Assembly (NCBI GenBank): GCA_030159075.1
Contig: BROG01000135.1
Span: 996,501 to 1,060,500, forward strand
Reading direction: 5' to 3'
DNA: 64,000 nucleotides
DNA from: Atrina japonica
Taxonomy: Eukaryota; Mollusca; Bivalvia; Pterioida; Pinnidae
Below the pieces are notes generated by a model that saw nothing but the letters and a program-made list of their open reading frames with translations, did no database searches and was not told the origin of the DNA. The translations under genes and the position numbers were made by a program. Of this stretch, positions 26,982 to 28,413 are shown one piece after another (position 1 is the first letter of the stretch; each line of letters begins with the position of its first letter).

Positions 26982-27035
26982 TGACGTATTTTTGCCATTT
27001 TTATTTGTGACTTTTAAAAGTGATCCTTCGTATCC
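26982..27035 (-). CDS. RBPMS: RBPMS-like alternative exon, version 2 (canonical beta-2/loop of RRM1)
   Basis: A 54-nt exon encoding 18 residues from GYEGSLLKVT to GKNTS. GYEGSL(I/L)K is the canonical family sequence, so this looks like the ancestral version of the exon. The acceptor is GTTACAG and the donor GTAAGT; both ends are phase 0. It splices to the next exon at Ser|Pro-Val-Gly-Phe, so the last residue contributes to the RNP1 octamer. The 3' splice site has a poor pyrimidine tract. Instead, four CAC triplets lie 17-51 nt upstream, which fits a regulated exon. The loop before Pro-Val-Gly-Phe is about four residues longer than the vertebrate form, in line with my recollection of insect couch potato. 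Confidence 0.9.
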
Positions 27036-27051
27036 CTGTAACGACAAATTG

Positions 27052-27086
27052 GTGATCATTCACAAAAAAAGTGCTCTGTGATTGTG
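27052..27086 (-). promoter_or_regulatory. CAC cluster upstream of alternative exon version 2
   Basis: Four minus-strand CAC triplets (27086-27084, 27080-27078, 27073-27071, 27054-27052) lie in the 51 nt before the exon at 27035. Two form the pair CACAGAGCAC. Binding here would overlap the branch point/3' splice site region, a position where RBPMS usually represses. Inference only. Confidence 0.35.
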
Positions 27087-27439
27087 GGGACTGTCTCAAA
27101 ACCTGTTATTTTATATGAGGGAACATTTCAATAGCTGTATTGGTCTTGCTAAATAACAACAATTCTTGGGAGTGTGAAAATATGACATTTGGGGGCAGCC
27201 ATCAATCAAAACCCAGACGCATAATATAAAGTCTCCTACGCCGACATAATCTGACATTGTTATCATAAATGATCAAATATGGAGGTCAAATGTCGATCAC
27301 ACAAATTCACCAAAAGGCTACAAATGAACCAGAAATAGAGTATACCTATACAACATGACAATACCTGCATCTTATGAGGTTCTGCAGTGTAACTGTCAGA
27401 ATTTTGAAGCAGCATCAAGTTACTGCTTTTTGTTGTTTT

Positions 27440-27565
27440 TCAAAATGTTACTCAGAATTCATCACTAATTTGAAAACGTCACCAAAATTAGGTGAGGTTC
27501 TACAAATTTTGACATATGCTATAGGCCTTATGCATGTCAATAATCAATCCCTCAGTCACAAAGGC
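27440..27565 (-). mobile_element. Decayed SINE core
   Basis: AAACGTCACCAAAATTAGGT, GAGGTTCTACAAATTTTGAC and ATATGCTATAGGCCTTATGC align with the core of the full-length SINE at 38090-38376, with many substitutions. Confidence 0.5.
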
Positions 27566-27757
27566 ACCAAAGCATATCTATCAGAAATGACTATCACTTT
27601 TAATCATGAAATGGAGACTGAATATCTACTGCATTTTTTAAAAATCTCTTGTCTAATCTAATTGTTGAATAAATATAGATTTGAACTTGGATCCATTGTA
27701 TTACACAAGGAGCACACAGCACTGACCTGCCAAGACAGTAAGCACTTTTACTTACAT

Positions 27758-27847
27758 GTAACTCATTCACCCCTAAAACATATTTGGACTGGTCTAAGTC
27801 AATGATTTACAGAACAGTCCAATGTTTTTTGGGGGTTGATGAGTTAA
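27758..27847. mobile_element. TTAA-flanked hairpin MITE
   Basis: GTAACTCATTCACCCCTAAA, ATTTGGACTGGTCTAAGTCA, CAGAACAGTCCAATG and GGGGGTTGATGAGTTAA. Confidence 0.85.
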
Positions 27848-28220
27848 AATGAATATTCTTTAGTTTGTCAAGCCTCTTTATCAAATAGGAAATTAGATTT
27901 CAATATGCAACTAATAGAATCCACTTAGACTTGTTATTATTTTACAGACCAGCACATGAAAATAAAAAATGTATCCTACATTTTACATGCAGCTAACATT
28001 TCTAAATTATACTATTTATAAAAAAAAATAACAGGTTTCTAATAAATGTTTTGGTGAGTAATGATGGGTGCCAAATACGATTTTGAGATAGTCCCTTAAT
28101 TCATAAAAATATAAAACATTAAATAGATTAGTCAAGCATAATATACATTAATGTATCGAGCTTTAGCAGCAAACCAACTTGTTAATACAATACATGCTTT
28201 TGGTTAATATATTAAAATCA

Positions 28221-28335
28221 GTGAAAAATAAACTTAGCCACACATATACATTTTATTTGTGATGTTACTTAGTAACAGTGGTTGCTAAGGTGATGGTGCA
28301 CGACACTGAGTTTGTTTACTATATTTATTAGTGTG
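28221..28335 (-). promoter_or_regulatory. CAC cluster downstream of alternative exon version 1
   Basis: On the minus strand, CAC occurs at 28335-28333, 28333-28331, 28298-28296, 28292-28290, 28280-28278, 28261-28259 and 28223-28221. These lie 25-140 nt beyond the donor of exon 28360-28413. Two are in GCACCATCAC, a tandem pair. Tandem CAC is the established RBPMS/MEC-8 binding element. The regulatory role is inference. Confidence 0.35.
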
Positions 28336-28359
28336 GCTTTTGACCTTTGACCTACTTAC

Positions 28360-28413
28360 ACTGTTATTTTTGCCAGGTTTCCCCATCACCTTTAACAAAG
28401 CATTTTCATAGCC
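28360..28413 (-). CDS. RBPMS: RBPMS-like alternative exon, version 1 (beta-2/loop of RRM1)
   Basis: A 54-nt exon (18 codons) beginning GYENALLKV and ending GKNNS. The acceptor is GTTTCCAG and the donor is a consensus GTAAGT; both ends are phase 0. It matches the 54-nt exon at 26982-27035 residue for residue in length and is identical at 12 of 18 positions, with Gly-Tyr-Glu, Leu-Leu-Lys-Val, Gly-Lys-Asn and the final Ser all kept. Many shared codons differ at the third base (GGC/GGA, TAT/TAC, AAG/AAA, GTG/GTC), as expected for an old duplicate kept under protein constraint. It would supply strand beta-2 and the beta-2/beta-3 loop, next to the RNA-binding surface. It is inferred to be mutually exclusive with its partner. 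Including both, or neither, would keep frame, so exclusion must come from splicing control. Confidence 0.85.

Follow-up and report, generated by a model that had tools for sequence, protein, structure and literature searches.

Tandem-duplicated alternative exons in the first RRM of a bivalve couch potato/MEC-8/RBPMS homologue are predicted to adjust RNA contact outside the CAC core

RBPMS has been described as a master regulator of splicing in smooth muscle; in PAC1 smooth-muscle cells, seven mRNA isoforms are reported to encode two major proteins with a common RRM but different C-terminal tails (PMC6613909). According to the structural reports, Leu54 of RBPMS stacks on C4 of UCAC RNA and Lys56 and Gln61 contact U1; the CAC is otherwise read by Phe27, Phe65, Glu97, Lys100, Thr103 and Lys104 together with backbone contacts; and the protein dimerises through D34, K36, R38, E39, Y41, L42, R45 and I84-D87 (PMC4783296), the corresponding contacts of RBPMS2 being R45, E46, L49, L50, D41-K43 and I91-P95 (PMC4150794).

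Tandem-duplicated exclusive exons, such as OGDH 4a/4b and those of muscle myosin and Dscam1, are homologous neighbours of equal phase that encode alternative versions of one segment. The pair of exons that we describe here, in the bivalve Atrina japonica, is likewise built; it differs from those cases in that it is not strictly exclusive in relatives, and in that what is exchanged is a strand and loop that contact RNA, within a family of splicing regulators. In the RBFOX family, skipping an RRM exon gives RNA-binding-dead isoforms.

Both exons are read from the minus strand of the window, i.e. the whole stretch of 64,000 nucleotides that was analysed: exon A at 28360..28413 (54 nt, phase 0; GYENALLKVMGKPGKNNS; boundaries ccag/GGC...AGT/gtaagt) and exon B, the general animal version, at 26982..27035 (54 nt, phase 0; GYEGSLLKVTNKNGKNTS; boundaries acag/GGA...TCA/gtaagt). 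The initial annotation had described two 54-nt, phase-0 exons about 1.3 kb apart with intact AG/GTAAGT sites; when re-derived, coordinates, length, phase and splice sites were as claimed, and the intron between A and B measures 1324 nt. A and B are identical at 12/18 residues and 31/54 bases, and a recount returned the same agreement and the same six splits (Gly/Asn, Ser/Ala, Thr/Met, Asn/Gly, Asn/Pro and Thr/Asn). The base differences number 6 at first, 6 at second and 11 at third codon positions, in keeping with the third-position differences noted earlier, and different codons are used at 6 of the 12 residues common to the two exons. When 127,884 18-codon windows from the two strands were scanned, nothing beyond A and B themselves matched either exon better than 7/18, and the matches listed at 7/18 lack AG/GT ends; the pair is therefore not a product of chance, and no third copy is present in the window. 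A, B, A+B or neither can be placed between exons 32752-32675 and 18941-18879 with the frame kept, all four combinations remain open through the downstream exons identified, and all introns of the gene found here are GT-AG. Thus, like the members of mutually exclusive exon pairs, A and B are homologous neighbours of equal phase with intact splice sites.

The remaining exons, also on the minus strand, place this pair in the middle of an RRM: the upstream exon (32675..32752; VRTLFVSGLPMDAKPRELYLLFRAYK) encodes beta-1/RNP2, alpha-1 and dimer contacts; the downstream exon (18879..18941; PVGFVTFSSRGAAEAAKQDLQ) encodes beta-3/RNP1 and alpha-2; and an exon at 18192..18330 carries beta-4, the C-terminal RNA contacts and the alpha-2/beta-4 dimer loop before starting the linker. 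The linker continues through 12234..12385 (ELGTAIFPGATEAWAPHPLAAYPELAAPTAALHHHTALIQHPALAQVPVR) into 3662..3915, which also holds the start of RRM2 (CSTLFVANLGQFSSEQELKDLFN...) and whose remainder is past the window end. As this second RRM begins at ~3741 and runs off the window, the label RRM1 given to the interrupted domain is correct; two RRM matches were also obtained in three bivalve relatives. No N-terminal exon was found in the window upstream of 32752.

By sequence comparison, the gene is a homologue of couch potato/MEC-8/RBPMS. RRM1 matched MEC-8 with E-values of 1.1e-26 when built with B and 2.5e-23 when built with A (phmmer, PDB), with RBPMS and RBPMS2 also matched; comparison likewise identified the dimer motif of the beta-1/alpha-1 loop and alpha-1 (MDAKPRELYLLFR) in exon 32752-32675; and the CAC-contact residues of RBPMS are present in exons 32752-32675, 18941-18879 and 18330-18192. 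The N-terminal RRM of MEC-8, couch potato and RBPMS (PDB 5tkz, 5bjr, 5det, 5cyj and 2m9k) is the same RRM1 by sequence and predicted fold, and the alpha-1 dimer-contact residues of the MEC-8/RBPMS family are the same as here; MEC-8 also has a second RRM, of which this gene shows at least the beginning, and the predicted model of an oyster relative matches 6dg0 as well. The PDB chains of the family that were found carry a single, B-like version of the segment, and RBPMS and RBPMS2 have five loop residues fewer in it than the exons described here. Over the variable linker the closest proteins are from oysters, the best being that of Saccostrea echinata at 85% identity. An extra linker segment of some oyster and mussel models (such as EWTFHTLPQEWIPHLQ, between VPVR and IHHP), which would belong to the interval 12234-3915, had no convincing match in the window, and its exon is either missing or too diverged for detection. 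Many mollusc members of the family are publicly named 'U1 small nuclear ribonucleoprotein A-like' despite their MEC-8/RBPMS-type RRM1.

Alignment to the PDB chains equates the swapped segment with RBPMS 49-61 and supports the earlier proposal that the duplicate exons encode beta-2 and the beta-2/beta-3 loop of one RRM. A and B do not differ at the equivalents of Leu54 and Lys56, and both have Ser where RBPMS has Gln61; their six differences map to RBPMS 52, 53, 58 and 59 and to two sites in the longer loop. Residue 58, which is Thr in B and Met in A, is predicted to face the RNA from its alternation along the strand with 54 and 56. The dimer-contact positions of RBPMS and RBPMS2 all align to the exons that flank A and B. 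As the published dimer and CAC-reading residues are outside the swapped differences, dimerisation and CAC reading should be spared; and as A and B share those residues of the segment that touch RNA in the published structure, the difference in binding may be small. The swap of A for B should adjust the grip on the base 5' of the CAC, or the overall affinity. Of the suggestion that the two isoforms differ in RNA affinity or spacing preference, the first part is plausible as an effect on RNA contacts, whereas a change in spacing, or in dimerisation, was judged unlikely given that the published dimer residues are in the flanking exons. In AlphaFold models with low overall pTM (0.33-0.34) and much of the protein at pLDDT <50, an A-only oyster protein is predicted to form an intact RRM1 (pLDDT 68-93 in 10-residue blocks, with the minimum at the beta-2/beta-3 loop), and beta-2 of an Ostrea A+B protein is formed by copy A, residues 68-91 (the end of A and most of B) having pLDDT <50. 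The best structural match of the predicted A-only RRM1 is the N-terminal RRM of MEC-8 (5tkz; TM 0.94 over the target).

Both exons were sought in other molluscs, as had been proposed, and both are present in the protein models of relatives. The relatives comprise 197 distinct representatives of 90%-identity clusters, taken from the best 120 of 612, the best 120 of 140 and 120 of 120 matches, and their isoforms are mostly automatic gene models. Classed by a motif rule, the representatives among the matches listed divide into 19 with A only, 6 with A+B, 157 with B only, 4 with neither and 11 unclassed (fragments or models that end near the segment); because the clusters merge isoforms, these tallies are presence counts and not frequencies. 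Among the matches listed, A alone is carried by bivalve proteins of Saccostrea echinata, S. cucullata, Magallana gigas, Mytilus edulis, Potamilus, Mya, Ruditapes, Mercenaria, Dreissena, Pecten and Argopecten, by those of Haliotis rufescens, Octopus bimaculoides and the annelid Owenia, and by two further proteins. A and B occur jointly, among the same matches, in Ostrea edulis, Magallana gigas, Mytilus galloprovincialis, M. trossulus, Babylonia areolata and Argonauta hians, with A before B in 6/6 joint models, the order seen in the window. Models that carry A (or A+B) stand beside B-only models, with the two kinds coming from contigs of equal length, in six species: Ostrea edulis, Saccostrea echinata, S. 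cucullata, Mytilus edulis, Mya arenaria and Owenia fusiformis. Only B was seen among the matches listed for Biomphalaria, Physella, Gigantopelta, Patella, Lottia, Solemya and Liolophura, in which A may have been lost or may be hidden within the 90%-identity clusters. The four representatives with neither exon, again among the matches listed, are from Octopus sinensis, O. bimaculoides, Lamellibrachia and the insect Kerria; those of Lamellibrachia and Kerria could be incomplete. In the Octopus models without A and B, AYK is joined straight to PVGF and beta-2 of RRM1 would be lost; on this reading of their sequence they are possible RNA-binding-dead isoforms.

Across these matches exon A has a character of its own. 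M-G-K occupies positions 10-12 in 9/9 distinct 18-residue A windows among the matches listed (8 distinct segments, one octopod segment being counted twice), N occupies position 4 in 8/9 of them, and in 30 distinct B windows listed position 10 is T in 29 and N in 1. The exon A segment is identical at 18/18 residues to proteins of Ostrea, Magallana, Saccostrea and Mytilus, and diverged A forms occur in clams, scallops, Potamilus, Haliotis, Babylonia, Octopus and Argonauta. Exon A differs in length from species to species in its loop part, at 17 to 21 residues among the mollusc matches listed and 26 in that of Owenia; the B segments of molluscs, by contrast, have an almost constant length among these matches. 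Among the best 120 of 140 matches, the 14 above the best B carrier are 13 from molluscs and one transcript protein.

The duplication appears to be old. Arthropods, echinoderms, hemichordates, a brachiopod, nemerteans, rotifers and nematodes have only B-like segments among the matches listed, and B is, by its occurrence across phyla, the general animal version. Two models of Owenia agree fully in the RRM1 flanks but have segment B in one and an A-like segment (GYENSLLKIMGKLVKTTGLGITTHPP) in the other, and their linkers differ too, by optional pieces; of the three sets of matches, the A-like segment came up only in that of 120 of 120. Against an A vs. B profile over the first 12 columns, the A-like segment of Owenia scores -1.9 bits, which is not positive, and the 30 B windows score at most -15.2; it shares M-G-K-L-V with A of Babylonia and is probably a homologue of exon A. 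The spread of A over bivalves, gastropods and cephalopods, together with the A-like segment of Owenia, argues for an early duplication, one that likely preceded the divergence of these three classes and probably also that of molluscs and annelids. Two proteins of Ornithodoros have an RRM1 segment (GYEGSQLKMNTKTGKATS) diverged from those of the other ticks listed, which may represent either a separately evolved alternative exon or a single exon that has diverged.

The initial annotation had called A and B mutually exclusive, and it is here that we depart from it: the rule of one exon per mRNA does not hold in the public models of relatives, six representatives, from the bivalves Ostrea, Magallana and two Mytilus, the gastropod Babylonia and the cephalopod Argonauta, having A+B and the models of two Octopus species having neither, and on these grounds strict exclusivity was dropped as the default. 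Nor does the anatomy of the locus enforce exclusion, since both introns are GT-AG, the spacer measures 1324 nt and every combination stays in frame. It is conceivable that the two exons are nevertheless strictly exclusive in Atrina japonica and that the joint and null models of relatives are annotation noise, as homologous neighbours of equal length and phase, and separate A-only and B-only models in six species, would lead one to expect; against the joint models, the null models and this permissive anatomy, we regard it as unlikely.

We give still less weight to a role of the pair as an on/off switch of RRM1, in which double skipping would kill RNA binding and it would matter little that A and B differ in sequence. 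The Octopus models would, as in RBFOX-type skipping, lose beta-2 of RRM1, the null models of O. sinensis and O. bimaculoides are in frame, and the contact residues Leu54 and Lys56 do not distinguish A from B; yet the conservation of A at 18/18 residues among oysters and mussels and of Met-Gly-Lys in all A segments seen is needless for a mere on/off exon, and null models are few (4/197 representatives listed, two of them possibly incomplete). Unlike RBFOX skipping, moreover, the present case offers two versions of the exon, and skipping is seen in few models. Hardly credible is the idea that exon A is a decaying relic that has lost its splicing in Atrina japonica: several molluscs do have B models only among the matches listed, but A retains an open frame, intact sites and full identity over 18 residues to distant oysters and mussels. 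We consider it likely, instead, that A and B are homologous alternative cassettes that are not strictly exclusive, that A is an old, diverged tandem duplicate, and that the swap tunes the grip of RRM1 outside the CAC core.

The DNA around the exons offers leads on how their use might be controlled. An array of 22-nt tandem repeats upstream of exon A (28444..28601, no strand assigned) ends ~30 nt before it, and several units contain TTGACCTACTT, which is complementary to positions +3 to +13 of the exon A donor (AAGTAGGTCAA). On the minus strand this stretch has five perfect complements, all within 285 nt upstream, and none elsewhere in the window; a complement of this kind within 300 nt upstream was found for 1/23 GTAAGT sites on the minus strand and 0/21 on the plus strand, and for 42/9,085 and 56/9,085 sampled positions. 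The local fold of exon A is slightly better than that of shuffled sequences, with a z of -2.0 (7/200 shuffles as good); that of exon B has a z of -0.9 (42/200). The predicted accessibility of the exon A donor is the 7th lowest of 23 GTAAGT sites, or the 4th lowest when +3 to +6 are scored, and exons 18941-18879 and 12385-12234 have donors that are as deeply buried (0.26 and 0.25, vs. 0.29 for exon A). Given this ordinary accessibility, a hairpin that hides the exon A donor is only a lead, as is exclusion by competing RNA structures of the Dscam type.

Past the exon B donor, at ~20 and ~35 nt, are TGCATG at 26961 and GCATG at 26946 (span 26961-26942), which we take to be RBFOX-like motifs. As TGCATG occurs 24 times on the minus strand of the window, one near exon B could be chance; the chance of TGCATG within 100 nt is ~4%, before other possible places are counted, and RBFOX control is not claimed. 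An imperfect inverted repeat at 28817-28959, ~400 nt upstream of exon A, has 59-nt arms with 76% complementarity and, at its ends, 20-nt arms with 90%, and looks like a small palindromic mobile element.

Our favoured reading, that of a swap outside the CAC core, would work as follows: exon choice would give RRM1 its beta-2 and beta-2/beta-3 loop in one of two forms, either the general animal version B or its diverged tandem duplicate A; the swap would leave the dimerisation and CAC-reading residues as they are and alter position 58 as well as the loop that neighbours the base 5' of the CAC; and the A and B isoforms would then differ in affinity or in 5'-flank preference at CAC sites. For Atrina japonica itself, we infer the use of A and B, its regulation and its consequence for RNA binding. 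A bolder extension, which we put forward only tentatively, is a molluscan, possibly pan-lophotrochozoan switch that would reprogramme the RNA specificity of a master regulator of splicing, in which B reads general CAC sites, A prefers another 5' base and A+B forms a third RNA-binding state, so that one gene would serve several splicing programmes.

None of the titles and abstract openings listed from the open-licence literature searched describes the A/B pair, and the available text of a paper on human tandem duplicated exons contains 0 mentions of RBPMS (PMC9741552). It seems, then, that the pair belongs to a known kind, tandem-duplicated alternative exons, in an unusual place and of great age. 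It is present in public gene models and has apparently been retained through much of mollusc evolution. A swap kept for so long in an RNA-contacting strand would be a natural experiment in altering the preference of an RRM with its dimer and CAC-reading residues untouched, and molluscs with either version are predicted to tune the RNA grip of an RBPMS-type protein by exchanging an exon.
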